Position numbers and translations under genes: made by a program. This document shows, one piece after another, positions 14,401 to 46,215 of a stretch of DNA of 64,000 bases. Position 1 is the first letter of the stretch. Every line of letters begins with the position of its first letter. This DNA is from Cheilinus undulatus. Taxonomy: Eukaryota; Chordata; Actinopteri; Labriformes; Labridae. Below the pieces are notes generated by a model, which had not been told where the DNA came from, did no database searches, and saw nothing but the letters and a program-made list of their open reading frames with translations. The stretch spans positions 29,664,196 through 29,728,195 of the forward strand of contig NC_054873.1 in NCBI RefSeq assembly GCF_018320785.1, written 5' to 3'.

Positions 14401-15818
14401 AAATTTGATCGCCTTCCTTGCCATCCTTGGATTCATAAATCAAGCACTCAGCTGGCTCGGAGGTATGGTGGGATACCCTCAAATCACATTTCAGGTATGT
14501 TTTTGCAGAAGATGGAAAATTTGATCATATTCATATTGAAAAATGCAATATCTAAAAGTATTATTTAAAAAATAAGCAGGTGGTAAAATGTGGTTAAAGA
14601 AGAGCTAAAAATAATACTGTTCTGTGTTGACAGCTGATCTGCTCTTACATCTTCATGCCTGTGGCCTTTATGATGGGAATACCATATGAGGACACTTTCA
14701 TTGTTGCTGAACTGATTGGCACGAAACTCTTCCTCAATGAGTTTGTGGCGTATGAGAAATTATCTGAACTGAAGGCCAGCAGACTCAGTGGAAGTGAAGA
14801 ATTTATTGATGGTGTAAAACAATGGATAAATGTAAGTGATAATTTGAAAAGGAATATAGTATTTAAAGCTCCTGTGCTCAGTGTTAGCTTGTTATTAAAC
14901 TACCTTAAAATAAAACTGATGCCTTTATATGACTAAAAAAAGCAAACGAGATCATCAGCAGAAAGACAATTTCTATATGGTTCTTCACCCTGCTGATGTT
15001 ATACGTTTGAGTGTTAAAAGAAAAAGATGATCATTTTTTTGGTAGATGAAGTAGTTGTACAGGATAAAATCAGCACAGGAGAAAAGGACACCCTTATAAT
15101 GGATATAAGAGCGTTACAAACACAATTTTGTTCATCATGTTTCAGGTCCGATCAGAAATAATCACCACTTATGCTCTTTGTGGTTTTGCCAACCTCAGCT
15201 CACTGGGGATTGTGATTGGAGGCCTATGTGAGCATTTTGTTTTTTTTTTTATTGTGCCTTATGAAAAAATATACCCCCCTCTCACAATGATGTTTTTTTA
15301 AACAAAGTATTTTCTTTTCTCAAAGCCTCTATATGCCCGTCCAGAAGAGGCGACATCTCATCTCTGGTGTTGAGAGCTATGATCACTGGGACTTGTGTAT
15401 CTCTTGTAAATGCTTGCATTGCAGGTCAGTGCTCTTGAATTTTACTCGCATTTAACTTGTTTTTTTACAGCAGTGTAACTAGTTTTCTCTGTCACTTTAA
15501 ACCTTAGGACTCCTCTTTGTTCCTCCATTCGACTGTGTTGGGCTGTTTCAGACAGCTGCTTTTAATGTCTCAGACGTAAATATAAAAACTTGCTGCCTAG
15601 ACCTTTTTGACAGGTAAGCATTTTTTCTTTTATTGTTTTAGTTTAGGAGTAGCTCTCTTTGTTAACATACACACTGATTATTGAATAAATTCTTTTGCAG
15701 CACTGTAAACAATGGGACCATCTCATTTGAAGGCTCTTGGACCAATGTAGCAAATGTCACTTTGTTTTTCTCCAACTGTTGTAAGTGTTGTGGTATTTCT
15801 GAAGCAGTGTGTTATTAG
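8494..15818 (+). CDS. slc28a1: Concentrative (Na+-coupled) nucleoside transporter, SLC28A1/2-like, complete
   Basis: Imports nucleosides across the plasma membrane by sodium symport. Eighteen exons: 8494-8497, 8724-8803, 8886-8962, 9313-9404, 9531-9720, 9822-9963, 10207-10320, 11743-11817, 11910-11990, 12113-12193, 12378-12503, 14104-14234, 14326-14494, 14634-14831, 15146-15227, 15326-15424, 15508-15613, 15701-15818. All junctions are GT-AG and the model closes to 654 codons, the family's usual size (human CNT1 is about 649). The polytopic core shows GNIFVGQTEAPLL (residues 306-318) and [12 protein letters not shown] (339-350), the substrate-pocket helices. The C-terminal tail has N-glycosylation sequons and the cysteine pattern of CNT1/CNT2 (NCC...C). 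The start uses a four-base coding exon (ATGA|gtaagc), inferred from phase. The body resembles CNT1/CNT2, but the pocket residues match CNT3. The symbol is by best resemblance; slc28a2 is the alternative. Confidence 0.93.
10780..11260 (+). repeat. Degenerate A/T-rich tandem repeat in slc28a intron 7
   Basis: A loosely repeated ~45-base phrase ('catattttgacttt...aaactcatgatttcaaattt') recurs about eight to ten times with heavy divergence. It lies within intron 10321-11742. It has no coding content. Confidence 0.6.
12559..13165 (+). mobile_element. Tc1/mariner-derived non-autonomous fragment in slc28a intron 11
   Basis: The left part carries the hallmark phrases 'actcaacagccactttatt', 'aatctaatgagccaatcacatggcagca'-type sequence in shortened form, 'gacatggtaaggatgatctg' and 'agcatcagaatgtgg'. 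The right end (about 13080-13160) is an inverted, partly matching copy of the same phrases. It looks like a fold-back, internally replaced Tc1 derivative. No transposase frame remains. Recognition is from memory of the fish consensus. Confidence 0.6.
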
Positions 15819-21700: not shown

Positions 21701-24700
21701 ACTGCTGATTATTTTACCTTTCAATGGGTCTAGCTTCTTTTCTGGTTTCTCCTCTCGTTTGGAGCTGCTTTGCTCCTCCTTGGGAGTCTCTTCCACCACT
21801 TTTGGTACCTCTAGGGTAATCTTCCGGCGGCTCAGCAGCGGGGATCGCCTCTCCATCGGTGGTGTATTCTGTCCAGTGGGAGCTTGTAGTAATGCTGCTC
21901 TGCGAGCCTGGCTGGGTGACATGTAGGGGCTCTCTTTCTTTCCCTGCGAATCCAGTGAACCGACAGCAGCCCCTTCATCTTCTTTTGGTTTTGGGATGAA
22001 TATTTTGCGACGAGCTCCAGAGGCCAACTCCTCTGGTGTTGCGGAGCGAATGAGTGACAGGCTGTCTCTGCGTTTCAGCCGGGGACTGCTTTCACAAGAC
22101 AAGGATGAAGTTGGTGTGGAGCCTCCGCTTAGATCTTCGTCTGCCTTGTCGCTCTGACGGTCACTCACTAAAGTCACGCTGTCTGTGTCTGGAGCAGCTT
22201 TGGACATGAATTTACGCAGGCTGGCTGGGCTCAGTGATGGATATGTGGGGGGTTTCGAGCTGAGTCTTTCAACAGATGATCTGTTTTTTTGCAGGTCCTC
22301 CAAAGACATAAAACTTTCTGTCTTGGCCTCTTTAAGAGGTTTTGTTTTTAAAATATCAGGGATAGTGTCATCTTCTGTTGGTTTACTGTCCCCAGCCTTT
22401 GGTATTAGAGCTTCAAACAGCAACGAGGGAATTTTCTCTTCTATACTGTTATCTGCCATTTCCTTTAGAATAAATTTTCCACTCAGAGTTTTTTCAGGAT
22501 TAGTGCTCATATCATTGCCAACATCATTCTCATTTCCCTTTTGCATGCCAGCTGGAGTTTCTGTTTGTGTCAGATCCGTCTGAGTGGGTTGTGTGAGCAC
22601 AGAATCACTTTCATAACAAGTGACAGATATTGGAGGCACCACAAACAGGGGTACTGCTGCTGTTTCAAAAGGCTGCTGTGTGTCTGAAACATGGCTGTTT
22701 GCATACACACCATCCTCCTTGTCATCAGAGCATAAAACATTTATAACAGGAATGGATGCTACTGCCATCTGAGGGAGCTGTTCACTGCTTATCACAGGCG
22801 GCTGCTCTCGCTCAAACATTTCAGTCTCGTCATCTAATTGCACAACTTCCTTGACTTTTTCTGTGGGTGAGAGGCTATAATCATTCTGCATACCTTTCTG
22901 CATGGGCAGCAAGCTTGGAAAATCAGTCATGTTTTTGTTTTGTGCTATTTCATCAGATGCATGTGCTGAGTCATGTTTTTGCAAAGCTACAGGCTCAGAT
23001 TCCAGCTTATTCAGTGCTAAAATAGTAAGTGGCAGAGTGTGCTCTTTGTGCTCAGGCTCCATTACTTCAATTTTTGGGATGACAAACTCTTCACTTGGCT
23101 TTTCATAGGACACAGTTGGTTTAATATCTATTGTGTCTTTAGTGGTAGATATTTGAATTTGTGGATTATTCTCTGACGGCCAATCCTGCTGCCTCTCACT
23201 GCCATCTAGATGTGCACTAGCACTGCCTTCTCCCACACTGCCTTCATTGCTTTGTGCTTCCGGAAGGTTAAATTTTGCTTCCTCTTCTTGATCTCTACTT
23301 TCTGCCACCACTTCAAATGGTAAACTATCTTGCCTTGCTTCTGTGTTTTCCTCTAAAGCCACCTGGTCTTGTGTTTTCAGGCTGTTGCACAACCCCTCTG
23401 TCACAAAAACAGGACTTTCTTCACTGCTGCTTAAACCTGAGTTTGTACTTTGTATTGCACTAATGCCTTGGCCCTCTTTGCTTTCTTCTTCCGGTGCAGA
23501 CATGCCCGCTTGCTGTATTTCTAGGTCACCCTCTTCTAAACTCTCTGGGGCTTCATTGGGCGGAAATTCTACAATCATTTCCTGACTCTGTAAAGTTTGT
23601 TCAATATCTTCTTTTACATTATCACCGTATTCTGCCACAGAACGCGGTGGTGGTGGCACCTGATCTGATGTTATAGATTCAAGTGGCACTATTCTCTCTT
23701 GCACAGAAGGAGCAGTCAGTTCAGTAATCTCAGATCTGTTCACATCCGAGCTCGGCTGTTGGTCTAATTTCATTTCAGCTTTCTCTTCCTCATATAACTG
23801 ATTCAAAGGACGGCCCTCATCTGCCTTGAGTTCACTTTCCCTCACATCAATGACACCCATCTTATCCTCCTGCACAGTTTCAGTGGGCGCCTCTCTAACG
23901 CTGTCTGATGATAAGATAACACTGGGAGGGAGAGTCCAGCTTTCTTCCAGGCTTGTGAGGGTGGGGGAGAATGCTTCTTCAATAGAGGCTTGGATATTTG
24001 GTGAGACAGGTTTATCTTCAAGGGCTGAAGAGTGATCTGTTGCTGCCTGGCCAGTGGGCAGTGGTGAGAGCACAGTAGACACAGGCTCTTGCTGGATTAA
24101 GGGAACAGCCTGATTGACAAACAACAAAAGCATTTTAGTTGTTATGTTGTGTATTTCACAATGAACTTGCACACACCTTTCATTGATTTTGAGTCATGTG
24201 CCTGTAAACTGTTTTTTTTTAGCAGCAGAAACCAACCGGCTAAAACATTCAGTGTCACGTTGAGGAGTTAAAAGTATTTTTAAGAAGCTTGTTACAGGGA
24301 ACTTACTTCAGTGACCTTTGACAGTGTGACATGGTAACACTTTTAGACTTAGACATGTTTTCCACCATAAATCAACAGGAGCATGACCATAACAGAGCTG
24401 AAAATCTGTCATTGAAATGCTGTATTATACTATTGATTCGTAGGCAATAATTCATTCAGAAAAACGTGAAGCAAACACAGTAAATCAACACATTCTTCAT
24501 GTTTTATGAGATGTCAGCTTATATCAGGAACTTCTTTACTTCATGTCACGTGCAAGGGAGCTGAAGCCAAGTGTTTACTCCTACATGGTTCCTATTAAAT
24601 GTTTGAATAAGCCTCACCCTTGACAAACAAGAGGTTATCTTTTTAGGTCAACCTCCCTTAATAATTCATTTTAAAATGAGTTTGAGGCAGTTGTGTATTC

Positions 24701-27700
24701 TAGTAGTTCAGAGAAATCCCCATGTTTGACAAAAGCGTGCCATTTACATGAAGAGGAAGGGCAATTAATTAAAAACAACCCTCTCTGTTAAAACATGGTA
24801 TTCATTCATGATATTAACCTGTTATGAATGCTTTGATTAGTTATGAATTACGAATAAAAATGTTGGAGAACATGAGGCTTGTTCTTTGTCAGACTAGATA
24901 TAAGGAATTTATTTTGTGTGTGACAAAGTGACATATTTGATTCGATGAAGATGAGAATTATAAATATAGCCCAAAACTCTTCAAGTGTTGCAGGGCCTTT
25001 CCCCTTTCTGTCCCTATTATTGCAACTCACAATCATTAAAATTCATGCGGAAGTGTTGCCACTTTGACTATGTGTTTGGTCAACAGTGGCTGCTAAGAAA
25101 AAAAAAAGAAGTTGCTGCTTTCATTGGAAGGAAACAGGTGTCACATTCAGTCTAAAAAAGAAGCTGTGGTCATCACTACACCTCCACGTGTAACAAAGTG
25201 TCACAAACGTGAGACGACATTGCTCAAATGCAGGGTCTGACTTCCTCCACGCATTATTCCACTACCACAGTGAAGGAACAGTGTTAGTTCCACATGACAG
25301 ACATACAATCGCTCTGCAGGTGGATACAAATAGAGTTACTTCAGTTTCCCTTTTCCAGAGTCGTTTTGCATTGCACACTGTGCATGTTATATTTGCAGCA
25401 TCACTGCAATCAATTCAAAATATTTGCATACACTTGCATATACTGAACCAAAGTTTTACATATTTTCCTGTTTCTGTGTGTATTTTTTCATGTCCCAGTT
25501 TCATTTTGTATTTAGGTAATTGTGTGTTTTTGTGTCATATTGTCCCACTTAGTTGTAGTGTTTTGTGTTTTTAAATCCTCCTGTCTCCTTAGATTATTTT
25601 CTAGTTGGTACTTTGGTATCTTGTGTGTTAGTTTGCTCCCCCATGTGTGCATGTTCCTTGTTGTTATCCTGTTGAGTTTCCTGTTTTATTTTGTAATCCT
25701 TGTCTCCTGTGTTTCATGTCTAGTTTTACTTACTGGTGTTTTCCCTCCACTCTGATTGCCCTCGCCGGTTTCACCTGCGTCTCGTTTGTCACACCTGTCT
25801 CCCTGCTTATAATCACCCCCTGTATATTTAGGTTCTTTGTTTTGTTCTGTCCTTTGTCAGATTGTTGTTTGTCTCTGTGATGTGCTCCTGGTGAATCATC
25901 CCTTTGTCTCCTGTGTACTTTCACCTTTTTGATGGACTAAGTTTGGTTCTGAATTTGGGTCCTCCTTTTGTTTTTGGATTTTTTGAAGCTCCTGACACAT
26001 ATACATCATCAAAAATAAAAGGGATTTTTGGTCAAAACTGCTCATCCTTGGTTTAAAGTTAAGAATAGAATGTTTAAAAAGTGCATGTTGTAACTTTTTA
26101 CAATCAACTCAGTTGATTTTTAGGTTAACATTGCCAAATATTTCTTCTTTTTAGGAAATAATCAATGAGTGAAATATGTATTTATTTAATTAGCTAAATA
26201 TAAAATGTAATTATTTTGTTTGGGACAAAAAGCAGGGGCAATGCTAAAATAAAGTTAAGCTTTTTCACTTCAAAATTCATTCACAAAACACACCAATATG
26301 AAAACCCTCCTACAGGAATTTATGATCTTGACTGGAAGTAAGTCAATGCATGCCTGAATAAACAAAAACTACACACCAGAGCATCACAGCATACGTTCGC
26401 ATTATAAGAACCTTCACTGGACTGTGCATTAATTCCCTCATAGACATGAAACAACACTATGAGATTATCACTGAGATAATAAAAGTACTACCGCCTTCCT
26501 CTCACTCTGCTAGTTAAAGGAGGGGTTTATTTTAAGATATGGGGGGGGGGCAGAGAGGAATGCGGCCAATGTGACAAGGCCCTCCTTTCAAGCTGGGGCC
26601 TGCCGTAGAAGTCTCTCTACTACTGCTTGTCCAGACCACACGGCAGTCTGTCATACAGAGTCCTGTTTGTAACCTGAGAACCACCTCTAACACTCAGGTT
26701 TCATCATGATCTCTGACGCACTGCTGCCCCACTCATCACAGTCAACATCAGAGTTATTCCATGGCCTATTTTACAGTTTTCAGTGCAGAGGCATAACAGC
26801 CCCCACCCCCACATAGATTAGGTGCAAGGCTCTTACAGTTTCCCATTAATCCCACACTTATTTGTTTTTTCACGCCTGTGAAGTGAAATTGATGCATTAA
26901 AACCAAAGTCTCACATGGCCAGGCTGACTCACCCCACTAGTCAGTGGTATTATACTGTAGGTTAACAAGTGGTTGTGTTCTACAGTACATCTAACTCTGA
27001 GTTGTCATAAGCTTCTTATTACCACATTTACCACCAGCAGCAGCTCAGAGACTAAACTGTGTCGGGCATAGTTGACATAGTTCAGGCTTTAGCACTGAAG
27101 TAGCTCTTCTTGTACTATCTTGTCACACAAATGCAGTCTAAATATATCCGTCAAGTGGCAGCCAGCTGCCCTGCACGACCACTGTACGTACCTCAGTGAG
27201 AACTTGAAGCCCAGACAATGATATTTCTGCAACTGGACTGCTGATCTCTGGCCCCTCAGACACCTCCATGGCCTCCTCAGCATCATCGGCTCCCTCAACG
27301 CTCAGTCCTGTGGGCTCATCTATGCTTACAGCTGCAGGCAGCACAATGTGTGGAACACTTTCTTCACGTTTGTGCTCATGTGGCTCCCGTGATACTGTTT
27401 CTAGGTGCTCCTTTGGTTTATCAATATCCATTGGCAAAGTGTTCTCTGTAAGAGGCTTACACTCTTGGTTTTGCATAATTTGCAGTCGAAAAGATGGTGG
27501 AGTGTCTGGTTTAGGAGGCAGGTGGTCAAGCTCTTTCTCCTTGTTCTCATTGTGATCATGAGAGTCTTTTTTACCCTTCCCAAAGAGAAAGTCTTTGACT
27601 GAGTGGAACATCGAGGAGATGGAAGCCGGGATTTTGTGGTGTTCATGATCCTTGTGCGCCTTGCTGTGATGTTTGACTTCTGTGCCATGTTTGGTGTGTG

Positions 27701-30700
27701 TATGTGACGTCTCTCTTTCTAATTCTTCTTCGCTCTTTTTCTCTTTCTCATGCTCTTCCTCCAGCACTTTCTCTGGTTCCTCTCTCTCTTTCTCTGTATT
27801 TGCACCTACAGCAGGTATATCCATCTCTTTTCGTCTCTCTCGAGGTGAGTTCTGTTTCTCCTCAGCAGCCTGAGACTGAAGAGCCTCGGCCAAAAACTGT
27901 GCCAAACTGATTCCTCCATCGTAACAATTTTCACCTCCAATTCCCATCATATGGCTTCTGTTAGTGCTGCTGCTGTTGCTAACTGGAACATCTCCTCCGT
28001 TTGAAATCTTAATTTTCTTTTTGGCCATGCTTTTCTCAGATGGAGAAGTCTCATTCTCAAGGTCAGTGTCTTTGGACGTCACTGTTTCCTTAACTTCCAA
28101 GCTAACTCCATTAGCTTCAGCAGCAGCTCCCATTAGCTCCACAGCCTCAGGCTGCTTGACCTCTGCTCTGTCCTCTGATGGTGGAATGGGACGCTTTCTT
28201 GGAGGACGTTCTGGGCTGCTACGTAATTTTTCTTGTTGAATTATAGCTGTCTCTTCCTTCTTATTCTGCACTTCCATTTCGTTTCTCTTCTTCTCTGCTT
28301 TCTGTTTCAGCTTAGCAAAGAACCTCTGGTGAATCTTGTACTCATTCATGGTGCCAACCTCTAAAACTCCAGAACATGAGACAATACCTTTGCTATTGCT
28401 TGCTGAGACCTGATAGATGGCTGCATCATCCAATGTACAGCTGAAAAATATAAATGTAGGTAAGGTTGCCTAATATTTTTTACAAGATGAAAAAACAAAA
28501 AAAGCTTCCTTCCTTTTACTTTAAAGTGATGAAATAGATTCTTTAAATGTTGTTTTACATACTTGAAAATATGGAGAGTGTGGGTTTTTCCATTACGGCG
28601 GATTTCATATTTAGGGAGTCCACAATACCGGTCCATTTCCATGTCATCTTTATACCATTTCAGTTCTGGAGCTGGATAACCTAAAGACAGGAAAAGCAAA
28701 CAGATAAACGATTTATCAACATTGAGGAACTCCAAGTACAGCTAAAAAAATGAATCATTAGAAACATTATTCCACAAAAATGAGACATTAAAATAACAAA
28801 AAAAATGTGTTGTAGTATTAGCCAGATAATGAGGGATGCACCAGTGCTGATACCAGGCCTAAGTACTCATACTCATACTTACAAAAATTGTTGATTCTTT
28901 ACCCCAAATTAGTTACAGTATGATGCTAGCCTTTATTGTTTTGAGTGGGTAGGCAAGTTGCGGCAATGTCTACATGACAACTGTAGAGCAGACTTAACTA
29001 TGCACTGCTAAGTTGTCAAGGGAAGAGGAGTGGTTTCTGATGAGACTAAAACTAATTTTCAAAACAATCTCAAGACCTGTAACTGTATTATTAAGTAATG
29101 GTACTCAGTGAGTACTCAAATGTTAGAACTTGGCATAAAATAAGAGGTATAGGTGTGTCCCTATCAAAGGCTGCCCATCAGGCAGGATAAAGGGCCCTCC
29201 ATGAGCAAAGCCCAAAGGGGGTCCATCATGATCCATCATAAAGTTAAGCTGTGATAACCATGATTCATATTTGACTTGAATAACTACTAGTCTTATCGAA
29301 ACTACAAAAATTAATTTTATCTATTTATTTATGCTGTTGTACAATATATCTTGTTCAAAATATAAAAGCATAATTACCTTTTTGTTGCTAATGTTAACAA
29401 TCTGGATGGGCACATTGACTAAAACATTTGGGTAGTGATGTCAGACCTCATAGCTAAACCATGATCCGCACAAACACCAGGGTGCCAGAGAATAAAGTAG
29501 ATAATAATTTCAAAAAGAGGAAAAAAAAAAAATTGGCAAAATGGAATGAAATGGCAAAAAATGGCTTATAAAAAGTGGTTACGGAGAGGCAGATTGGGCT
29601 CAAAAGTCAAAAATAGGATAATAGCTGCAGAAATGGGTTAAGAATGGCAAAATGGGCAGGAAAATGTTGAAAAGCTGTTAAAAAGTGTCAAAAATTGGGT
29701 AACAGTGGCAAAAAATAGGTTGAAATGACAAAATGGGTTGAAAGATGCAAAAATTAGATAATAACTGCAGAAACGGGTTTAAAAAAAGGCAAAAATGGAC
29801 GCAAAATGTTGAAAAAACAGTTACAAAGAGTCAAAAATTGGTTAAAGGGGAAAAAATATTGAAAAACGTTTGGAAGAAGTAATAGAAGTTATTAGTATAT
29901 CACGAGGGCTAATTCGCTGGGTTTTTTCAAGGGCCCAGCCAATTCTGTGGGCAGGCCTGTCCCTATCAATAACCATCAATTTAACTTTTTTTAAATATAA
30001 CTTTTAAATGAATAATTGTAAACAGCACTGCTGCTTATGCTTGCTTTGGATTTTGCCTTTATTGTCAATCTCTAACACAAAATATTTAAAATCAAACTCA
30101 TCACAGGCAATTATTTGTGTGGGGCCCCACACCATGTGAAAAATCTTTTATTGAGCATTTTAACTGTTTATAAATTCTGTAGGGGCCCTCAACCAAATAT
30201 GCTGTTGAATTCACATTATTAAATCAATTCAGCTAATTTATTACTTTTAATTCATAAAATGAAAACAACACTCATACTCGGCCTGACTCTCAATTGATGC
30301 CTAAATCCAAAGAGAGAGACTGGACAAAAAATCCTTTCATAGAAATAGATTTGGGAATTTGTAAATAAAATAGGCACAGAGGCTTTGGCATGAATGTGTT
30401 TATGCTGTTGCATCATGTAGTGTTGTTATGTCCCACACAGAGGAACAGCTGCAGCTGTTAGATGGGCCCACCCATCCAATCTGCCTGCTGTTAAAACACA
30501 AAATCTTGAATGAGAATCTTTAATAATATATGGTGTGTTATGTTTACAGAGCAGTTCAAGATGAATAAAGCAGTTAATCTGCACAGTGAACTCTTTCCTT
30601 TTGTTTTCAGATTAGTCACATCCTGTCTCTTTACAAGAGAAATGAGTCTAAATGTTTAATTTACTCCATAAAAAAACAAACAGAGGCATGCAAAAGAGGG

Positions 30701-31732
30701 CAGACCTACCTGACACCACACAGCTGAACTTCACATTACAGTTTTCTGACACTGCCTTGGATTTCAAGGTGGTTTCGAAAGACGGCTGTATGTCTTCAGT
30801 CAGCTGAGCCATGACGCTGCACAATGTGCTCCTGGAAGCAAACACAAACGCATCAGATAGTTGTTTCATACTGAAGTGACAGTGTCATTTCAGTGACCTC
30901 TTCATGGTTGTGCAGTACATTCCAAGGACTTGCTTCATTAAGAGGAAAGGATGTTAATGGGAATATCTGGTAGTGACGAGAGTGTGAAAGAGTGAAACGA
31001 GAGACTTGTGAGATGTCAGGCAAAACAGAGTCGTCAATACAACACTAACATTGATGTCTATCACTAAAACTGAACGCAACACTGGACAAACGGACACTTG
31101 CATCGCAGTTAAATTGTATAGGTTTCATTCTTGGGGTCACCCAGTTTTCGTGGTTAAGATGTTAGTTGGGAGGAATGTTTTGAAAGTATGGTTTACCTCG
31201 TTGGTCTGTAGTGAGAATACCTTGAATAGCTATTCAAAGAAGAGGCAAATGAAGGGATGTCAATTATTAATTAGATCTTTTTATATTGAACCCAGATAAT
31301 AAGATAATCTAAGATTTGCCCTCTTCTTTGAAAAAAAGACCACTTTATTACATTTGTAGATTTGAAAAGATACTAGCATAATGTATGTGATACATGTGTT
31401 TCTGTGAAAAGAACCCACTGTCACAAATATATGTTTATCATATTTTGTTATTGCTTTAACTCAGCTTGTCTGACCCAGATGATTTCTTGACAGTCATTAC
31501 ATTTGAATCTTTTAGAAGAAAAATTTAACCAGATTTATGAAATCAAAGATTTACATGCTCTCTATAAATGGATTGTAAACAAGGTTGCCTACCTGTTTTC
31601 TGGCCTAACATTTGAGAGGTAAGTGTTACGGCTCTCTGAGCGGCCATTGGAAGAGCTGCCCTCCTCTTCACTGAAGCTGCTTGTCCTCCCATTGCCAGAG
31701 AAAGAGCGAGTCATTGGCCTTCTTGAAGTCAT
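18708..31732 (-). CDS. alpk3: Alpha-protein kinase 3 (alpha-kinase-like muscle scaffold), complete
   Basis: Thirteen exons in transcript order: 31732-31593, 30831-30710, 28680-28563, 28440-27192, 24109-21718, 21411-21264, 20748-20621, 20531-20496, 20412-20138, 20029-19941, 19491-19274, 19179-19131, 19044-18708. The model closes to 1,766 codons, close to mammalian ALPK3. Order: N-terminal low-complexity segment ending in 'TYLSNVRPENRS'; Ig domain 1 (about 60-150); 'YKIHQRFFAKLKQKAEKK'; a long acidic disordered region (about 200-1330) with 'TPEELASGARRKIF'; Ig domain 2 (about 1341-1432, 'CGVYGC'); alpha-kinase domain (about 1445-1690). Zinc ligands H1622, H1675, C1677, C1681 and the ATP-site lysine K1511 are present, but the two aspartates expected at 1636 and 1646 are Arg and Asn. 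ALPK3 acts in cardiac and skeletal muscle at the M-band and nucleus; loss causes cardiomyopathy. Assignment is strong; exon 1 upstream UTR is unresolved. Confidence 0.95.
24110..27191. other. alpk3 intron 4 (3.1 kb)
   Basis: This intron separates the two large exons. Its middle part (about 25300-26000) is T/C-rich with phrases such as 'ttgccctcgccggtttcacc' and 'tttttggattttttgaagc' that resemble a common fish dispersed repeat, although the class cannot be assigned. A G run lies near 26540. The open frames here have no splice or domain support. Confidence 0.6.
28829..29163. mobile_element. hAT-like MITE remnant in alpk3 intron 3
   Basis: The left end 'gagggatgcacc' and the right end 'ggtgtgtcccta' are imperfect inverted repeats of a family whose ends read approximately 'agggatgcaccgat'. 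The interior, with 'actcatactcatact' and 'ggtactcagtgagtactc', fits the same family. No coding capacity remains. Confidence 0.5.
29500..29890. repeat. Purine-rich tandem repeat in alpk3 intron 3
   Basis: Two imperfect ~145-base copies start at 'caaaaataggataatagctg' and 'caaaaattagataataactg'. Each is built from shorter 'gcaaaatggg'-like submotifs. The + strand is strongly A/G-rich. It sits inside a larger interspersed repeat that ends near 29960 ('agggcccagccaattctgtg'). Confidence 0.7.
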
Positions 31733-32269
31733 TGTCCACCGAAACACTTCACAATAAAGGTAAAATCCGTGATAAATGTGCTACCCAAAGTATAAAACTA
31801 CTCTGTGGTCGTGTCCACAGCTTGTTCAGGAGTCAGGGCTCAGCTTATATGATGTCATCCAAGTAAAAGCCCCTGTAGAAGAAAAAAGAAAACACTTCAG
31901 AATGGCAATAAAACTTACTGAAAGTCAAAAACAAAACTATAACAATGTTTTTTACCTTTACAAAACTCAAAGACGTTCCTTAATGCTTATTCTTTTCTAG
32001 CCAAGCAAAGTAGCTGCTTTGGAGCAGGTTATAAATAGTGTCAGCTATCAAGTTGAGGAAGGGCTGTTAGTGGTCAAACACTAGCCTAAGATTAGTTATT
32101 TACTCGTAGGTGTTAGGAATATTATTTGAATGGTTCTCAGTCTCCTACAAAGTTCTTACATTTTCCAACTTACCATTGAGATGTTTTCAGTGCTGCTTTG
32201 GAGCAGGAGTCTGTGGAGAAAATCTCAGTAGCCTCCTATCATAGACAAGCATGTGTTGCCAGCAGGGGC

Positions 32270-32279
32270 CTATTTATAG
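32270..32279 (-). promoter_or_regulatory. MEF2-type palindrome / TATA-like element upstream of alpk3
   Basis: CTATTTATAG fits the MEF2 consensus (YTA-W4-TAR) on both strands, and it also reads as a TATA element on the minus strand ('gctataaatag'). It lies about 540 bases upstream of the alpk3 start codon, so a 5' untranslated exon or a UTR intron would place the transcription start just downstream. MEF2 control would suit a striated-muscle gene. This is inferred. Confidence 0.45.
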
Positions 32280-33142
32280 CAGCCCTACAAATAGGTGCAA
32301 GAGCACATCAGAGTTTCCAAAACTCAGTTTTAGACTTTTACAAAAGAGATGACAAAATTTAACCAAATGTAAGTAAAACCCTCCACACCAGTGTATTTTC
32401 ATGTATATCTGCCATTTCATTAATGATCATGCTGTAAAATTTCCCCAGCATTGATTCAATGTTGCTAACAAGTTGAGACAGCGGAGACCTATCTTAGCGA
32501 GATACAGTAGTGGGTCTGAGGATTATGGTTCATGATGTAGCTGATGACGACCAATGGTCTATGTCCTCTGCTTTGCTCAAGAGTTGCTAAAGGACAGCCC
32601 CCCTGACTCTGGATTGCAACACATAGTAAACATAGAGAGCCACTTGCTTCTCAAATTTCACATCAATTAGACAAAAACAGAATCAGCTGATAAAATCTGG
32701 ACTTTGACAAGAAATTTAATCTCAGAAAACCTGACAATAAATTTAATATTTACATTCCAAACCCCTCTTCATACATTTTTAGACAATCACATCTTCATTT
32801 TTTTTTTACTTAAGTCGTCTAAAAGAAGCCGCACCACAACCAAGGAGTGCCAACAGGATTAACAAGTTTTGCACTGCAGTTGAAGCTAATAAGCAGAATA
32901 GCATACATTTTAAGGACATAATATAAGGTATAACTGTCTATTTCAGGACACTTATAATACTCTTTCATTCTGATTTTAAGGTATGTTAAAGTCTACAATC
33001 TCTTTATTCTAAAATTCAATCACAAAATTTAAGACCTTATGGTGACGCATTTAAGACTTTTTAATACTTTTTAAAAGCTTTAATTTTGTCTTGACTAATT
33101 GATCAACTTTTAATACTGTTTAAGACTTGCAGATCCCCTGTC

Positions 33143-33590
33143 TTAAAGGTACAGTGTGTACAATTGTGATTATCAGCAACAAGAAATAGTCACTTCTAGA
33201 TTGTGATGTACATTTCTCTAGTGGAAACTGTGGCAATCAAAGACAAAAAAAAAATTGTATTTTTTAGTTTGGTTACTTCTGTGGTACCATAAAAACACAC
33301 AAAATACAAAATCCAAGATGGCGTGGTGGGGACCCTCCCTATTTATGAATAAAGGCTTCTTCTGAGTTGATAAAAATCATATTTTTTGTATTCAGGTGAT
33401 TGAACACAAAGTTTGATAAACATCCTTATAAATATTATGTTTAAAATAAAACCTACAAATATACATATATTTTTAATGCTTTCATTACTGTCTGAAAAAG
33501 CATTTTACACTTTTAAGAGATTTTTTTGTTACAACTTATCTTACGATGGTTAAAATCATATCATTGCCCCATGACACACTCTAAAAATAT
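33143..33590. mobile_element. Fish dispersed MITE-like repeat
   Basis: The block opens with 'ttaaaggtacagtgtgtaca' and continues through 'ctctagtggaaactgtgg', 'tccaagatggcg' and 'tattcaggtgattgaacac'. These are landmarks of a common fish repeat whose consensus begins 'ttaaaggtgcagtgtgta'. The right end is weak. The preceding 33015-33140 block ('tttaagactttttaatac') resembles another repeat that also appears near 10540. Confidence 0.55.
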
Positions 33591-34419
33591 GCTACATATT
33601 TCCCACAAATAGACAGTATGAAGGAAGTTTTTTGTTAGGCATTTTTTAATCTCCGGACTGATTCTGCACAATAAGACAAGAATAAAGAAACAAAGCCATG
33701 AATTAAAAGTTACAGTTCTCTGTTAGTAATTCATCTATCACGTTTCATAACAATGTAAATAATTTCAAATAAGCCACACCAGACGTAGAATAAGTTCTGC
33801 TGTGATCACTACAGTTTCTATTTCTTAGTAGAACAACAAGAAAACCTAATGCTTCTGCCATGTTTGGATCCTGTATTGCATCAAAGGGGACAGATTCCTC
33901 ATTACCGTAATGCAGTTACAAGTGACTCAACTAGTATATCTCACAAAACTTTAACTTCAGCGTGGGTCACCTGCCAGGATATTTTGCAAATACAAATATG
34001 ATTTTCCTTTCAAGTCAAACCACATAATCGTTTTTACGGGACTAGCAGAAGTAATACAATCTCTAAACTCTCTCAATCCTTCCATATTACGTTCACTACG
34101 GTAGTGACTCATTCCGGGAAATGGGAAGAGTTCACTCAATATATTAGAAGTCATAACGATAGTGAGGGTAGAAACCTATCTGAGAACCGACAGCTTCTCA
34201 ACTGGCACAAGGCTGAAAGCAGGTATTCACTGATACAAGTTTTATTTAAAATGTTTAACAAGTTAAACATTGTAAAAGAGGAAATTGACGATACAATATT
34301 ATACAGCATGATTTATATTCAAAGCGAGCTTCAGTAAAATGAGAAATCGCGGGCTGATTTTGAACGTGTGACTTACTCGCGTTTTAATCCGCAGATTTTT
34401 GTGTTTGGTCGTTAAATCG

Positions 34420-34497
34420 ATGGAGGCAGAGGCAACACTAATCTATACTCTGATTTGACATCCAGCAGTCTGGCAGAAGAAGATTAAGATGCATTGA
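34420..34497 (+). promoter_or_regulatory. Two upstream ORFs, the second overlapping the paracaspase start
   Basis: A 12-codon uORF runs 34420-34458. A two-codon uORF (ATG CAT TGA, 34489-34497) ends so that the A of its TGA is the A of the proposed main ATG (TGATG arrangement). Such overlap is known to permit termination-reinitiation. The main ATG has a weak context (T at -3), so initiation at the in-frame ATG at 34530 is also possible. Whether transcription begins upstream of these uORFs is not shown. Confidence 0.5.
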
Positions 34498-37400
34498 TGA
34501 ATGGATCTCGCCCCAATTCCGGTCGAATAATGATCAGAGGTATGTTATATTTCTCGACAACACCACACCACACTGTGACCTCGGCATGTTGTCTGTTACT
34601 TTCACAAATAAAAGTAACAGTGTTTTTTCAGATGACTGAGACCTGACCTGATTTGTTTCAGATATCGTCATAGTGCAGCATCCCGTCTCTGTTTGTGTGC
34701 CTGTGAACCACAGAGTGACTCTGAGCGTTCGTGCTGAGGGTAAAGGCATCCTCAACTACCAGTGGTTTACTGAGGATGAGAATGAGGTGTGTGGATTTTA
34801 CCTGTGCTATGAATTTGAAATCCTCATTAAGGGGTAAAAAAAAAAAAAAAATCATACTGAAGCATACTTAAAGGCTGCTGTTATGTTTACATGCTTGTTC
34901 TGAAACTGTGGGGGCAAGTTATCAAATGTCACCTTGAAACCAGAAAATGCCACTGTTTCTCAACTGGTGGGTTGGGGCCCAAAAGTGGGTTACGGAGTGG
35001 TTTTCAATTTGTGTCGCAAAAATGATGCACAGAAGCCATAAGCAGACATGTATTTTATTTGATCCCAATTTGTCCAGATCTCTAGAAAACAACAAGTTTA
35101 CGTTATCACAGGAAATGAAGAAAAATTAAACACATGTATAGTTGTCCCTCCAAGAGTTCTGAAATCATTCACTTACTTAACAGGTTTGTTTTGCCATATT
35201 TCTGTTCAGTCATATGTTTGCTTCAATCCAAGGGCTAAAGCGCAAGATTTTTTATTAAATAAATCTGAGCCAGTGGCCTTGTCACTGTGCTTGTATCTGC
35301 ATGCCCCATGCACAGAGGCTGTTGTTCTCGAAACAGCCTGACTCCACTCTCATGTCATTCTCTCCATCTCAATTTTCCTATTGTACAATTTCCTATTCTG
35401 AAAAATCTTAATATAAATAAATATGAGTGGTTGGAAATGTGCACAGATTTGGTTCTAATTTCTAATTAAGGTCAGTGGTGGTGGGTCATGATGGTTGACC
35501 ACTTGAGAACCACTGATATATGTTATTAAGAAAATCTTGATCTAAGCACTAGAGTTTTCTTCAACAATATTTTTCTCTGCAAAGAGGGACAGTATTTTAT
35601 TTTGTTTATTTTCCAGGTTCCCGGTGGCACTAAAGAACACTTGACTATCACGGCTACACAAACACAGCTGTATGTGTGTCGAGTGAGCGACCATCTGTAT
35701 AACTTTGTGTTCAGCGACTGGGTAAAAATGAAGGTGGTGGACATTGATAAATCAGGTGTGCATTTTGCAATTCTTATCTTGATTTGGTTGTAGTGTGGTA
35801 CCTGTGTATTCTTGCAATTTTGCTAGTTTATGGTGCACATTTCTTGTTTATTGTTGTGGGTTTGAATGCATCATTTTCATTTCAAACATCATTAGGTTTG
35901 CCAGTACACTGGGCAGGGGAGCCCCATATTGCTGTCAACCCAAAACCTCAGAGAGTCAGGAAAGGCTCAAAAATCACTCTGCGCTGTGTGGCCTTTGGTA
36001 TACCAGCTCCTCGCTATCAGTGGTACAGAAATGGACAGCAACTGGTAGACAAAACCAGTGACACACTGCAGGTAAGGAAGGTTGACAAGTGAGTGTTCAT
36101 TTACCTCAGTCCTCGCAGAGATTGTTTACATAGTGCTTTATTGAAGGTGTCATTTCCCTTACCCAAAATCAACCTTCACAGGCTATGCTGACAATTGTAA
36201 AATGTGGCTAGTATTGTGTATAATATAGTTCGATATGCCAGATCACAGAGAAACAAACAATGATAAATAATCTTGTCTTTTTCATACAGATTGAACATGC
36301 AGCAGCTGAACATGAAGGATCATACCTGTGCTCCATATCTAATGTGTTAGCAGAGAGATGGACTGAACCAGCGGATGTTGACATTGGTAAGTCATGACTG
36401 AAACTGCTGTTATCCACTTGATACCATTCTGTATATTCAGAATCAAATCACCTTATTGTTAATATCAGATTAACTTCCTCCTTTTAAATGAAATGGCAGA
36501 AAATCTGATTTCCTTACACTATTTCATTCCACTGATTTAGCTCTTAGGCTTAAAATTGTTTCCATGATGCTGAAGGTACTTTCCAATTTCTACAGACCAA
36601 AAAAGGAAGTTGCTAGACTCCAAATAGTACTCTGTCCGAGCCCCAAACACAAAACAGGAAAGTGATGTAAAATGAAACTAGTTCTTACTGTTTGTTACTG
36701 ATTCTGTTGAACATAACATAAAGAGCAAATAAACCAACAGCAGCATAAGCGTCAAACTGTAGTCAAACTGCAGTGTATTGTCTGCGTCTTCTGGGCTAAA
36801 TTTGGGTATTTTAGCTTAAAAAAAAAAAAAAAAATTGACTAAGTGTGGTTCTCTTCGTTTATTTCTTCCAGTGCGAGTGGATCAGATTCCCCCTGCAGCA
36901 CTCACAGGTACAGTTTAAATTCTTAACCTCTGTTTAAATAAAGTCATGTTTTAAATTAGCTATCACAATATATATCAAATTACTTATTTTGCTATCTATT
37001 ATCTTTCAGCCACTGATAAAGTTGCCCTACTTATTGGCAACCTGAATTACTCTAACCACCCTGGCTTGATGGCCCCCATCATGGATGTACACAAGCTGTC
37101 CAACCTCCTGCAGCACCTTGGCTTCAGAGTGGTGTCGCTGCTTGATCTCACCAGGGACGAGATGCTCGCTGCTATTGACAAGTTCATTCAGCTCCTTGAT
37201 AGAGGAGTCTATGGTGAGTCCAAACTGACAATACCGCTATATTTGTTAGTTAAAAGTTAGCCTCATTTATCAGTTGATTCAATATTCAGCTGTTAATCAG
37301 GTAACTTTTAACTATTTTACATTTTTACATTCAAGCCTTTATTGTTGTTTTGTGGCTGATGATGGCTGAGTGGACTAATAAGGACTAAACAGTAATGTAT

Positions 37401-40400
37401 GCAATGCTACTAAAACTTTATGTAACAGTATTAAGAGCACTTCCTCAATGGCTGTAGTTTTTTTGTGAAGTGTTCATTAATAATCTGGCAATGAACTGAA
37501 CTTCCATATTTCTTCATGTGATTATCAGTTTAACATATTTCTAACTTTTAGGACCAATAATCTATCCCATATAGTTACATCAGTTACTCACATTTTCAAA
37601 GGAGCACAGCAACCGTTTGTTTAAATACAGACAGACATTTTACTCATAGAGCTGCATTATGAAATCATGTTAATGGTGAACTAAAAATAACTTCAGAACC
37701 GTCCTGCTGTGTCATTATGATACTGTCTGTTTCTATTCTCTGCAACAATGAAACAAACATCAGAAACAAGAAAGCATATTTATGTAGTTACTCGGTACTC
37801 AAGAATCTATTTTTACCTCTCAGGGCTAAAAATAATAACAAATGATTTACCTCAGTATTATAGCAAATGTGCAGTGCAGAATGTGACAAGATTGTAGTTG
37901 CTTAATGTGCATTTGATCACCATTTACAGGCCTTTTCTACTATGCTGGTCATGGTTTTGAGCGTGCTGGGAGGAATTACCTGGTTGCTATTGATGCTCCT
38001 CAACCGTACCAACCTAAAAACTGCGTCTGTGTGCAGAGGGTCATGCACAGCATGCAGCAAAGACAGACTGCACTGAGTGTCATCCTTCTGGATGCCTGTA
38101 GAAAATGGTAAATAATCTTTTTAGACTCACACATGGATTTCAACATGCTTAATCACACATTGTAGGATACTTTATACCAAATATATATATTTGCTCTCTT
38201 TTTAATACACTGTATTTCACTTTTTTAAAGGTACAATCAAGATTGTATTCCCTCAGCCATCATGCCATTGTCACCCAGCGGGAACACTGTTTATGGATAT
38301 GCCACGTATGTACTGTTTATTAGTGTTTATAACTACCTGTATTTACTTGCAACCAATACCCAATAACCAACTCACTGATAAGACATTTCTGGCGCTGACC
38401 TTAGAACGGTTTTTGAATGAAGGTGAAGAATGTTTAACTATTTATATCAAAAAGGTAGATTAAGTTTTTTCTATTTAAATAACCTCTCTTTATTAATCAT
38501 TGCAGGTGTGAAGATGCTGAGGCCTTTGAGGTGCAGGACGGGGGGAAAAGTACTGGAATCTTCACCAAATACTTAAATGCACACATCCTACAGTCTGAGA
38601 AAGTCACACATGTCTTAGAAAGGGTGTCTGAGGGTAAGGAATTTCAACAAGGCTGTAGATTAAGTTTCTAAGAATTTACGTAAGATGCTGCTGCAACAGT
38701 TTTTTTCTTTGTACTTGGTTTTTTGTTGGTTTGTGGGTACAAACACACCATCGTGGAAGTGGTTTTTATAAATGCAATGTTTTATGGTTTCATTATTCAT
38801 ATACCCCAAGCCTTGTCAGATTGTATGTATCCAGTGAGTTAGTATATCTTGCAGAATGAGAGTAAACAGATCTGAAGGGAACAGGTTGTTCTCTCGTGTG
38901 CTCACTGGACTACAGACGAATTTTATAATTGTAAGCAGAGCATTTCAGTGTTATTTACACAGGACCTGCAAATCTGGCTGTGATGGAGCCGGGTTGCTGA
39001 AGTTATCAAGTTGTCCTGTCTTAAGAGTGTGTTTGTCTGCTTGATGGGCCTCTGGTAGAATAATTTTTTGAGATACCATTAGCATGTGACCTCATTCTCT
39101 GGAAATTTACACTGTTGGCGAGAGAACAGCAAGAAACCTGAGAGCTACAGGGTGCAAGACAGCTGCTCTGCCTTTTAGGCACCCCCTGCTTCTGCTCTCA
39201 TGGGTTCATGCACAAAATCAGGGCTAGCATGACAGGAAGGCCTCCAGACAGCATTCAGCATGTGTTATTAAAAAACACTGAGTTTTTTTAATTGAGCTGT
39301 GTTCTTTTCCCTCGAAACTGTTGGCAGTGATGTGAAAATCCTCGAGCCCCTGCTTTTGATCTCTGCTCCTCTTGTTGCTGACTTATTTAGAGATGGAAAA
39401 AGAGATGTTGATGGTGAGCTGCTGGGTGCTCATCCGTTATAATGACAAAGTGAAGACAGTTTGCTCAAAATATCCCTGGCACCAAATCTCCATAAATGCC
39501 AAGCATCAAACCATATTCAGTTGTTTGAACACGGTTTCACTGCTGCTGTCAGTTACCAGTAACCAACTGTAGAAATGTGTTTGTTGCATATATTCAGTCT
39601 CATGAGGAGGATTTTCCCATTAATCATCATTACGTCCAGACAATTCCTTAGAATACTGAGTGTTTTACTTTCAAATTCAAAGTTCATATTGTTTATTTGA
39701 ATCTGATTGTTTTCTTAGCAACTCAATTGTTCCTCTTGCCCTGCTGTTGCAAAACACAGGGAGACCCTTTGCCAATAGTGTGTACGTGCTTTGGCTGTTG
39801 TTGTAGGTTGTGTTTAAAAAATATATAAATTTGGACATAATAATGGTGTCTCTCAGACGCCAGACAAATGAATTTCTCTTTGGGGATGAATAAAGTTATT
39901 ATTGTATTGTAAAAAGAAAATCCTAGAAAACTGTATCCAGAGGCCCTGTAGTGCTTTATCTCCAGGCCATTTAAGGTTAAAATTTACCTGCATTTTGGGT
40001 TTTTTTTCTCTCCATAACAGATCTGGGAAGAGACCCTCTAGTCAGAGGCAAGCAGGTAGTAGAAATCAAACACACCCTGAAGGAACCCAGATCCCTTGCA
40101 GACCCAGTTCGGACTACTGGCCACACAAGAGAGCTTCACTTGCGAGACGCCTGCTGGAGACAAGCAAATGGTCAGTACGGGGAAATCCCCAACTATACAT
40201 GTTTTTTCCTGTTTGTCAAATTCCATGTCAAATTATGGTAGCATGAAAAAATAGTCATATTTTCATTAGGTTAACCACTATTCCACTTTATCTGATGTTG
40301 CCTTGAGCAAGAGATAGAGATTGTCCTATTTACCCCTCCTTACACCACCTACACTCACACCACTAGAGCATGTGAGAAACTGAGTACAGACATTGTGGTT

Positions 40401-42041
40401 TACTGTGATATTTTCAACACTTTAGTTGGCCAGTCGTCGTCTTTTTTTTGTAATGGAAACAGGGAACTGGTGTATTTCACAAAGTTCACGTTGCTGTTCG
40501 ATGGAAGCGAGTCATCTCTTACAATGGGATAACTCCCTTAAATTAACTCAAATCCCTTTCAAAAATGTAAATAATTTCATCGCATATCATCTGGGAATCA
40601 TTAACTGTAAAGACTAAATAGAGGATAAAAATATCTTTGTCATGAATTAATAAAAAAGGTGACAGTTTCTAATGTTCATAAAGTGCAAAATCACACACTT
40701 TATCCTTGTTTTACAATACTGTCATGATACACTGTTTTGGGTATTCTTTTTTTAAATCACTTCTTCACATCTCCTTTCAGAGCTGCCACAGAGGAAGCGG
40801 CTGATGTTTGTTTGTGGAGTAGAAGTGGAAGTAAGCTTCTCAGCTTTGTTCTCAAATGTCTTGGTGGCTTTTGCCACTGTGAAGACTACAGGCCCCAAAA
40901 CCCAGGACTGCACCATCACTCTAAGTAGCACACCGGTAAATATTACTGTTTTCTCCTAAGTATAAGCATTACTTTCAAGTATAATTTCAATGAAAAAAAA
41001 ACACAAACTATACAATGCCAGATTTTTAACACCTCGCTGGTGCCAGACTTTCTTCTGTAGGAGTTACTAAACTCATTAGGAGGTTTTAAAAGTGTGAGTT
41101 GTACACATCAGATATTCCATGTTGCTCACTGTAGATCGCTCTCAATTTCCATTAGCCAGCAAGAATTTCTCAGTGATGACTACCCCTACGCCTCACATGT
41201 GAGAGGATGTACTGCCCATATATAGACTTCCAGCCTGCTGAAACCACTGACAGAGACAAAGCAGGAAGTAATAACTGCAATCTGTAATACTGAGTGTTGG
41301 ACATCTATGCTCTGATATTTGACAATCATGCCATCTAGAGGCTGATTTGAGAACAGGGAATGTTGCAGCAAATTTGTAGCAGTGAGTCAGTGCCAGGACA
41401 GTGCAAAAACAGGGCAGGGGTGTTGTCACAGTTGGTCAAAATGCTTGATTATACTAACAACATATTTTCTGTTTTGAATCCTTAGACAATGGAGGACTTG
41501 TTTTCTGGCCCTGGCAGGTCGGAAGAGATGGACTCCCTTCTGTTTACTAAATCTGATGACTCAGACTGTTCGCTACGACTTTGTGCTCTTCAGAAACTCA
41601 CGGTATGTCATCACTGACTTGATTTACAGTGCTAATACAGAAAAAAGAGCACGTCTTTGAGAGGAGTTTGGTAAATGATGAGAATTTTTTTTTTTTATCT
41701 CTTTTTAGGAACCCCTGGTCATCAAAGTGGATCTGCACTATACACACATGGACAGTAGGCTACGTAAGACAGAAAGCCTAAAGGTGGACATAAGAAAACC
41801 TTTGGTGGCATCTTGTAAACTTCACAGGAGAAGTCATACCGTAACAAGCAAGAAGAAAGAAATTGCTGCTGCTCAAAGTATGGGCAACTTTGCCAGTGGC
41901 AAATCTCAGCTGCATAAGACTCTGGCTGCTCCTCTTCGCCCTTTCACGAGGAAGGCAGAGTGTGCTCCACAAGTCGACACATCAAGGCACAATGAACCTG
42001 AAGAAAACGATGAAAATGAACTGCACGACTTTACTCTTTAG
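34497..42041 (+). CDS. MALT1-family (type 1) paracaspase without a death domain, complete
   Basis: An arginine-directed cysteine protease of the MALT1 family, acting in cytosolic NF-kB-type signalling. Fourteen exons: 34497-34539, 34662-34786, 35617-35755, 35896-36071, 36290-36386, 36872-36907, 37010-37213, 37930-38107, 38231-38305, 38506-38633, 40021-40170, 40781-40935, 41486-41602, 41709-42041. The model closes to 651 codons. Domains: Ig1 (about 18-103), Ig2 (about 104-197), caspase-like domain (about 207-400), Ig3 (about 440-560), short basic/acidic tail. Catalytic His281 (YYAGHGFE) and Cys330 (LLDACRKW) are 49 residues apart, as in MALT1 (415/464). Acidic S1-pocket residues D231, D328 and E366 and the regulatory Trp446 fall at MALT1-equivalent spacing. 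No death domain precedes Ig1. Jawed vertebrates have MALT1 paralogues called PCASP2 and PCASP3; this is one of them, but which cannot be settled here. Likely symbol malt1-like/pcasp. Confidence 0.94.
34951..35515. mobile_element. hAT-like MITE in paracaspase intron 2
   Basis: The ends read 'cactgtttctcaactggtgg' and, inverted, 'cagtggttctcaagtggtca', an imperfect terminal inverted repeat. The same family occurs at 48569-48900. There is no coding capacity and no obvious target-site duplication. Confidence 0.65.
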
Positions 42042-46113: not shown

Positions 46114-46215
46114 ATGTTGAGCAGATTTAAGAGTGGCAGCATCAGGAATCTTGAGCGGGAATACAGCTGCACCGTCAGACTGCTGGACGATACGGAATAT
46201 ACGTGCACCATTCAG
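46114..46215 (+). CDS. frmd5: FERM domain-containing protein 5, first coding exon (partial gene)
   Basis: The exon encodes exactly 34 residues, beginning MLSRFKSGS and containing [13 protein letters not shown] and EYTCTIQ, and ends at a phase-0 donor (CAG|gttagt). This matches the remembered N-terminus of vertebrate FRMD5, in which the segment is the first strand-helix region of the FERM F1 lobe; FRMD3 differs clearly here. FRMD5 is a membrane-cytoskeleton adaptor at cell junctions. The remaining exons must lie beyond the window, because no second exon encoding the F1 continuation was found up to 64000. Fish may carry frmd5a and frmd5b; which one this is cannot be told. Confidence 0.9.

Follow-up and report, generated by a model that had tools for sequence, protein, structure and literature searches.

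The locus described here raises the question of how a paracaspase gene related to the immune protease gene MALT1 came to lie head to head with the heart alpha-kinase gene alpk3 in the fish Cheilinus undulatus. The window, by which we mean the whole stretch of 64,000 nucleotides that was analysed, corresponds to C9:29664196-29728195 of the 1.17 Gb genome (C1, C5, C7, C9, C13, C17, C20 and C22 denote contigs of this genome). A first-pass annotation had alpk3 starting at 31732 on the minus strand, with its first exon ending at 31593 ahead of a GT donor, and the paracaspase starting at 34497 on the plus strand with a first immunoglobulin (Ig) exon at 34662-34786. Both are borne out when the sequence is read, and the two ATG codons are divergent and 2765 bp apart. 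The evidence supports a view of the pair as part of a paralogous multi-gene block and so as more than a chance meeting of two genes. The window gene is very probably the third vertebrate MALT1-type paracaspase (PCASP3), an ohnologue of MALT1 dating from an early vertebrate genome doubling, with the block history proposed below.

Structure of the head-to-head pair

The features of the two genes are as follows.

18711..31732, minus strand: alpk3, from tblastn with a hand-typed human ALPK3 sequence, open reading frames (ORFs) and Pfam Alpha_kinase
31732-31593, minus strand: first exon of alpk3, from reading of the sequence
between about 30839 and 27138, minus strand: Ig-region exons of alpk3, from tblastn with hand-typed human ALPK3
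24193-21680 (ORF limits), minus strand: large exon of alpk3, from the ORF list
between about 20413 and 18711, minus strand: kinase exons of alpk3, from tblastn
31733..34496, no strand: the 2.76 kb of intergenic DNA that separates the start codons
34497..42041, plus strand: PCASP3-like paracaspase gene, 14 coding exons and 651 aa, from a splice model, Pfam and MALT1 structures
34497-34539, 34662-34786, 35617-35755, 35896-36071 and 36290-36386, plus strand: paracaspase exons 1-5, splice model
36872-36907, 37010-37213, 37930-38107, 38231-38305 and 38506-38633, plus strand: paracaspase exons 6-10, splice model
40021-40170, 40781-40935, 41486-41602 and 41709-42041, plus strand: paracaspase exons 11-14, splice model
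34497..34539, plus strand: putative first coding exon (MNGSRPNSGRIMIR), without a recognisable death domain, start codon inferred
37930..38107, plus strand: exon with the catalytic His (YYAGHG) and Cys (LLDACRK), from alignment to H415 and C464 of human MALT1
40781..42041, plus strand: exons of the third Ig domain (MALT1_Ig; PF18703, E-value 1.4e-51, residues 449-581) and of the C-terminal tail

The paracaspase model has AG and GT at all internal boundaries and no stop codon within its 651 aa. Besides MALT1_Ig, Pfam finds Peptidase_C14 (E-value, 2.5e-28) and Ig_3 (1.3e-21), the latter in two stretches, which gives two Ig domains before the caspase domain and MALT1_Ig after it. The best solved structure is human MALT1 (1.7e-102), and for Ig1-Ig2 there is a match to 3k0w, the structure of these two domains in human MALT1 (1.1e-24). 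The Peptidase_C14 match and the kept H415 and C464 are as expected of a type 1 (MALT1-like) paracaspase.

The exons of alpk3 from about 30839 to 18711 have 34-69 % identity to the hand-typed human ALPK3 in tblastn, the lowest values coming from alignments that read through introns, and Pfam Alpha_kinase matches at 19221-19544 (6.1e-17). Likeness to this human ALPK3 is not confined to the kinase domain but extends to exons beyond it: for the Ig exon (query residues 168-210) the identity is 63 % in the window and 60 % on C1, as against 44 % at the C17 locus read as alpk2. The human sequence behind the names alpk2 and alpk3 was in both cases the hand-typed ALPK3.

Three paracaspase loci

Genome scans score the best candidates only, and their counts are given here as minima. 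When MALT1_Ig was used, at least nine exon matches (ten candidates scored) were found at three loci, on C5, C7 and C9; a caspase scan gave at least 41 matches (51 candidates), with three loci taken as paracaspases by the profile range. The C5 and C7 genes were modelled by spliced alignment, and the models are partial, each stopping at the limit of its local alignment; one exon of the C5 model, only 10 bp long, is a probable artefact.

C7:28236646-28244424: PCASP2-like gene, spliced-alignment model

Core exon lengths of 204, 178, 128 and 150 are common to the three genes, and two others lie within 72-75 and 155-158. Over the caspase-Ig3 region the identity to human MALT1 is 268/377 (71.1 %) for C5, 241/375 (64.3 %) for C7 and 165/375 (44.0 %) for C9, and C9 is 43.2 % identical to C5 and 41.2 % to C7. 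Three paracaspases are described in jawed vertebrates, with PCASP1 and PCASP2 together on a single branch (PMC5978004). Because the window gene is the most distant of the three, and given that published scheme, the C5 gene is best read as malt1/PCASP1, the C7 gene as PCASP2-like and the window gene, the outlier, as apparently PCASP3. A scan of viral contigs with the 277-aa caspase region gave three pattern matches, of which one locus was confirmed (30 % over query residues 68-123), and was uninformative.

A tree of four sequences (human MALT1, C5, C7 and C9), unrooted and with no outgroup, is a weak guide. Its best topology joins human with C5 and C7 with C9, which fits a PCASP3 that branches outside PCASP1 and PCASP2, and the one joining human with C9 and C5 with C7 is nearly equal (deltaL, 0.56). 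A tree had been put forward in the first-pass annotation as a check on recent duplication of malt1, and that the window gene is such a teleost-specific duplicate, landed beside alpk3 by chance, now seems very improbable. The C5-C9 topology has a bootstrap proportion from resampled log-likelihoods (bp-RELL) of only 0.012, but it is not excluded at 5 % by the approximately unbiased (AU; 0.064, a value for which the program warned that the replicates were too few), Kishino-Hasegawa (KH; 0.14) or Shimodaira-Hasegawa (SH; 0.25) tests, and the long C9 branch also leaves room for it. Set against this, human, C5 and C7 are all about equally far from C9 (41-44 % identity), as against 71 % between C5 and human; the site patterns over 555 columns favour human with C5 and C7 with C9 by 16 to 7 and 7; the introns are conserved, and the gene is therefore no retrocopy. 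Several other neighbours have paralogues in other blocks, and a random place would fall within 50 kb of any of the three alpk2/alpk3 loci with a chance of about 3 x 100 kb / 1.17 Gb, or 2.6e-4 (post hoc arithmetic).

We also consider it unlikely, if less so, that the labels should be exchanged, the window gene being PCASP2 and the C7 gene PCASP3. The unrooted tree is undecided on this point; however, PCASP1 and PCASP2 are published as sister branches, and of the two genes that of C7 has by far the greater likeness to MALT1. A rax gene is linked to it as well, an arrangement that the Rax paper implies in its text for the paralogue of Malt1 next to Rax2 (PMC7137802).

Gene neighbourhoods and the origin of the pair

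The order on C9 is znf592 (minus strand), slc28 (plus), alpk3 (minus), paracaspase (plus) and frmd5 (plus), the genes beyond the pair being placed as follows.

C9:29656391-29661149, minus strand, some 3 kb beyond the edge of the window: znf592, with 352+452 bits for hand-typed ZNF592 as against 290+322 for hand-typed ZNF532
9733..15435, plus strand: nucleoside transporter gene of slc28 type, its position suggesting slc28a1, with Gate and Nucleos_tra2_C in successive exons from 12378
46114..46215, plus strand: first coding exon of frmd5, 65 % identical to hand-typed FRMD5 as against 51 % to hand-typed FRMD3

Further frmd5 exons lie downstream of the window (C9:29762958-29772489). The N-terminal match of the slc28 gene, at 9733-10020, is weak (E-value, 0.022), and an SLC28 scan of the genome gave at least ten matches (12 candidates) at two loci, C9 and C5. 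The alpha-kinase scan gave at least nine matches (16 candidates) at seven loci, three of them read as alpk2/alpk3; other alpha-kinase loci are on C20 and C22.

C1 carries a second alpk3 (minus strand) at 26.676 Mb and a second frmd5 (plus strand) from 26.711 Mb (block, C1:26676212-26820593), and no caspase or MALT1_Ig match was found on this contig in the genome scans; C1 looks like the teleost-doubling partner of C9 that lost the paracaspase. We note that the C1 block, with the order and orientation of the window and no paracaspase match, is a natural comparison for the gap left after a loss. A trpm7-like kinase at 19.07 Mb on C1 scores 114.9 bits against structure 1ia9, which we take to be the TRPM7 kinase, versus 82.3 for C5. 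On C17 an alpk2-like gene (15.568 Mb), znf532 (15.608 Mb; 61 % identity along residues 2-693 of the query) and rax (15.632 Mb; homeodomain identity, 94 %) are all within 64 kb (C17:15568344-15631877), and C5 has a trpm6-like gene at 16.92 Mb, malt1 at 29.77 Mb, a frmd3-like gene at 40.9 Mb and the second slc28 gene at 41.15 Mb. On C7 the PCASP2-like gene (28.24 Mb) and a rax gene (28.72 Mb; 89 %) are 0.48 Mb apart, and there is no alpha-kinase match on this contig in the genome scan. Calreticulin, a weak RNA-recognition motif (RRM) match and fumarase are nearby, in a region that we assume to resemble human 19p13. Among 149 matches listed in the RAX scan, the top three have 89-98 % identity (C17, C7 and C13, the last 98 %) and the next 67 %. 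The surroundings of the other two paracaspases, within 90 kb on C5 and 80 kb on C7, gave no alpha-kinase with the ALPK3 query, and at 1e-3 nothing matched rax, sec11, grp, lman1, cplx3 or csk, the GRP query being so short that a miss means little.

Paralogous neighbours thus occur on the corresponding contigs for ALPK3/ALPK2, ZNF592/ZNF532, SLC28, FRMD5/FRMD3 and TRPM7/TRPM6, when C5 and C17 are taken together as the malt1 side. In human 18q21 we take ALPK2 and MALT1 to be head to head. A human 18q21.32-q22.1 deletion holds ALPK2, MALT1, ZNF532, SEC11C, GRP, RAX, CPLX4 and LMAN1 (PMC5050361). The C17 set is that of human 18q21 without MALT1. The idea that the window pair mirrors ALPK2-MALT1 holds against the human arrangement but not in this fish, where alpk2 is on C17 and malt1 on C5; equally, the proposal of a positional origin for the extra vertebrate paracaspases fits the window gene and does not extend to the C7 gene, which is rax-linked on a contig with no alpha-kinase match. 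The earlier notion that the pair arose by ohnology was thus too wide in scope, and stands for the window gene, where it is well supported by independent data on position, with the multi-gene paralogous block and the distance from malt1.

In the history that we propose, a chromosome existing before the doublings would have held ZNF532/592, SLC28, an ALPK2/3-type alpha-kinase, a head-to-head paracaspase and FRMD3/5. One doubled block would have led to human 18q21 and 9q21 (ALPK2, MALT1, ZNF532 and RAX; FRMD3 and SLC28A3) and the other to the human 15q25 region (ALPK3, ZNF592 and SLC28A1) and FRMD5, with the human places for the most part as we assume them to be. The ALPK3 block would have kept its paracaspase in this fish, mammals presumably having lost theirs, and a third block, with RAX2, would have kept PCASP2. 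The teleost doubling would have copied the alpk3 block to C1, with loss of the paracaspase there, and seemingly split the alpk2/malt1 block, leaving alpk2-znf532-rax on C17 and malt1 on C5. What the data show directly is the window gene, the three paracaspase loci, the positions of the genes and the sequence distances; we infer the order and timing of the events, that C5/C17 and C1/C9 are such partners, and which of the rax loci is rax2.

ALPK2 and ALPK3 have been described as ohnologues of the first and second vertebrate genome doublings (1R/2R), on the TRPM6 and TRPM7 chromosomes, which apparently arose in 1R (PMC13143021), and shark, gar and coelacanth have retained Malt1-Rax-Cplx4 together with its paralogous counterparts (PMC7137802). 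When the published 1R origin of the chromosomes is combined with the Malt1-Rax paralogy, the split of MALT1 from the window gene (PCASP3) would fall in 1R and that of MALT1 (PCASP1) from PCASP2 later, in 2R, an order that agrees with the published tree and with the distances measured here. That a small segment was duplicated long ago in the ancestor of jawed vertebrates, in place of a whole-genome doubling, strikes us as improbable. Such an event is argued from lamprey and hagfish for Malt1-Rax-Cplx4 versus Rax2 in PMC7137802, which prefers segmental duplication without excluding genome doubling and points out that it cannot be dismissed on synteny alone; however, the common genes (alpk, znf532/592, slc28, frmd3/5 and trpm6/7) are scattered far along the contigs, and PMC13143021 assigns ALPK2/ALPK3 to 1R/2R.

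Several observations count against the origin by genome doubling. The alpk2 (C17) and malt1 (C5) genes are not adjacent in this fish, and the C5 genes span 24 Mb, which therefore is linkage on the scale of a chromosome and not micro-synteny. Many neighbour identities depend on hand-typed human sequences, with alpk2, trpm6, frmd3 and slc28 named by lower identity or position and FRMD3 compared at the window exon only, and the counts from genome scans are lower bounds. The C9 branch is long (1.44 versus 0.34-0.56), as formally it could be in a fast-evolving later copy; the human-C9/C5-C7 topology is about as good as the best, and C5-C9 is unrejected by AU, KH and SH. The data come from one fish genome with no outgroup paracaspase, and the PCASP3 label rests on distance and published trees.

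The link between alpk3 and a paracaspase was not found in print among the papers listed from the open-licence literature, where the ohnology of MALT1 is treated in the Rax paper (PMC7137802). The order of events behind the jawed-vertebrate paracaspase expansion was called indeterminable in a 2018 study (PMC5978004), and the gene neighbourhood offers an independent clock for these splits: if the window gene parted from MALT1 in 1R, along with ALPK2/ALPK3 and TRPM6/TRPM7, and PCASP2 parted from MALT1 later, along with RAX/RAX2, the order would be fixed without reliance on short protein trees. A site for the mammalian loss of a paracaspase is also suggested, beside ALPK3 at 15q25.

Shared regulation

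Whether the two genes share regulation was a question raised by the first-pass annotation, and there is no sign of it in the 2.76 kb gap, its low G+C content or the placing of MEF2-like sites near alpk3 only. That the pair is held together by a bidirectional promoter or by co-regulation has the head-to-head arrangement in its favour and nothing else, and we give the idea very little weight. The starts are 2.76 kb apart and the G+C content at 32001-34000 is 0.345 (A+T-rich); MEF2-like sites at 32029 and 32270 are 300-540 bp above alpk3, with none near the paracaspase start; and the alpk3 of C1 has no paracaspase match on its contig. MEF2-like sites are enriched across the A+T-rich window (23 found versus 10 expected), and NF-kappaB-like sites number seven versus three expected in the window, with none between alpk3 and the paracaspase.

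Death domain, active site and predicted function

A death-domain profile built from human MALT1, C5 and C7 finds nothing significant on C9 (best E-value, 1.9), and matches two exons each on C5 (4.7e-29 and 5.1e-18) and C7 (5.4e-26 and 1.7e-4), with a chance match on C7 at 0.024; leave-one-out profiles still recover the control exons (1.5e-8, 8.9e-5, 4.4e-19 and 2.7e-6). Spliced alignment with the C5 protein gave one marginal candidate, 33964-34090 on the plus strand, for a death-domain exon in degenerate form. Its score was equalled or beaten in 2 of 300 shuffled upstream sequences (1 of 30 in a first run), and it was not picked by the C7 or human queries in spliced alignment. Counting against a loss is the faster divergence of the C9 gene relative to the control genes. 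The death domain of the window paracaspase thus appears to be either gone or degenerate. An upstream ORF at 34002-34337 was rejected as a death domain, having no Pfam death-domain match, where the sensitivity of Pfam for the MALT1 death domain is unchecked.

In human MALT1 numbering, H415, C464, D365, D462, E500, R465 and W580 are identical in the window protein; of these, D365, D462 and E500 are taken by us to form the acidic substrate pocket. E549, an active-site residue like R465, is kept, R551 is replaced by K, and the K644 position falls in an alignment gap. Roles of E549, R465, R551 and C464 in MALT1 are described in PMC3747146; residue 397, tried as a dimer contact, was dropped, the contacts named there being E549 and R551. 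The Ig3 TRAF6 site is TPEETG in C5, TLLEAG in C7 and RSEEMD in the window protein. This Ig3 site is stated for all three jawed-vertebrate paralogues in PMC5978004, but it is not treated here as defining type 1 paracaspases, because the C7 gene is also without it. We note that the C7 gene keeps two death-domain exons and yet has TLLEAG; the TRAF6 site is therefore not universal in jawed-vertebrate paralogues. A C-terminal PEENDE (residues 638-643), the one match to a loose TRAF6 pattern in 651 aa, was not used. The absence of a recognisable death domain, of K644 and of TPEETG in an alpk3-linked paracaspase is new here.

Judged from its sequence, the window protein very likely shares the caspase-Ig3 fold of MALT1 and acts as a cysteine protease directed at arginine. 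A recognisable death domain, K644 and TPEETG are all missing, and its recruitment and activation probably do not go through BCL10, mono-ubiquitin and an Ig3 TRAF6 site as those of MALT1 do. MALT1 cuts off its own death domain at R149, and the fragment signals more strongly in a K644-dependent manner (PMC5214165); the window gene would be a death-domain-free protease without the K644 switch. We can offer only tentatively the joint reading that the death domain was lost in this lineage to give a BCL10-independent protease, and that the three paracaspases are a dated 1R/2R series (ALPK3, ALPK2 and RAX2 blocks). Were it true, the window gene would be a genome-encoded counterpart of the fragment left by self-cleavage of MALT1 at R149, and its product would depend on some other trigger, K644 and the Ig3 TRAF6 site being absent. 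A natural paracaspase that is possibly BCL10-independent would be useful in separating the protease role of MALT1 from its scaffold role.

Other features of the region

A kappaB-like site (GGGAAATCCC, overlapping on both strands) is present at 40180-40190, just past the exon 11 donor of the paracaspase, and nine perfect ATGA units at 42148-42183 begin about 100 bp past its stop codon. Near-identical ORFs at 3070-3424 and 7931-8285 are 4861 bp apart and, together with two low-complexity stretches that resemble each other (about 0.85-2.1 and 6.9-7.7 kb), look like a local duplication of about 4.9 kb before the slc28 gene. The ORF at 6660-7156, which runs into a low-complexity stretch, resembles what we take to be a BEL/Pao-type retrotransposon pol fragment, and ORFs downstream of the window (C9:29733533-29734444) look like those of a Tc1-type transposase.

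Comparison with known systems

The window gene shares with human MALT1 and its C5 counterpart (PCASP1) the Ig-Ig-caspase-Ig3 order, the core exon lengths (compared with C5) and the identical residues named above, E549 included, but differs in its 44 % identity over caspase-Ig3, the lack of a recognisable death domain, K for R551, a gap at K644 and RSEEMD for TPEETG. The C7 gene, read as PCASP2, has the same architecture and core exon lengths as the window gene, but it keeps the death domain, is 64 % identical to human MALT1 and is linked to rax rather than to an alpha-kinase. For PCASP3, represented by zebrafish DrPCASP3, the Ig3 TRAF6 site and a domain structure conserved since Cnidaria are described in PMC5978004, neither of which the window gene shows. 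The Malt1-Rax-Cplx4 and Rax2 loci of PMC7137802 are similar in that paralogous Malt1 genes lie in paralogous jawed-vertebrate blocks, but that work concerns the Rax2-linked copy and its main text is without ALPK genes. The ALPK2/ALPK3 ohnologues of PMC13143021 are on the same chromosomes, with which the trpm6- and trpm7-like positions found here agree, but its main text is without malt1, and in this fish alpk2 is on C17, away from the trpm6-like gene of C5.

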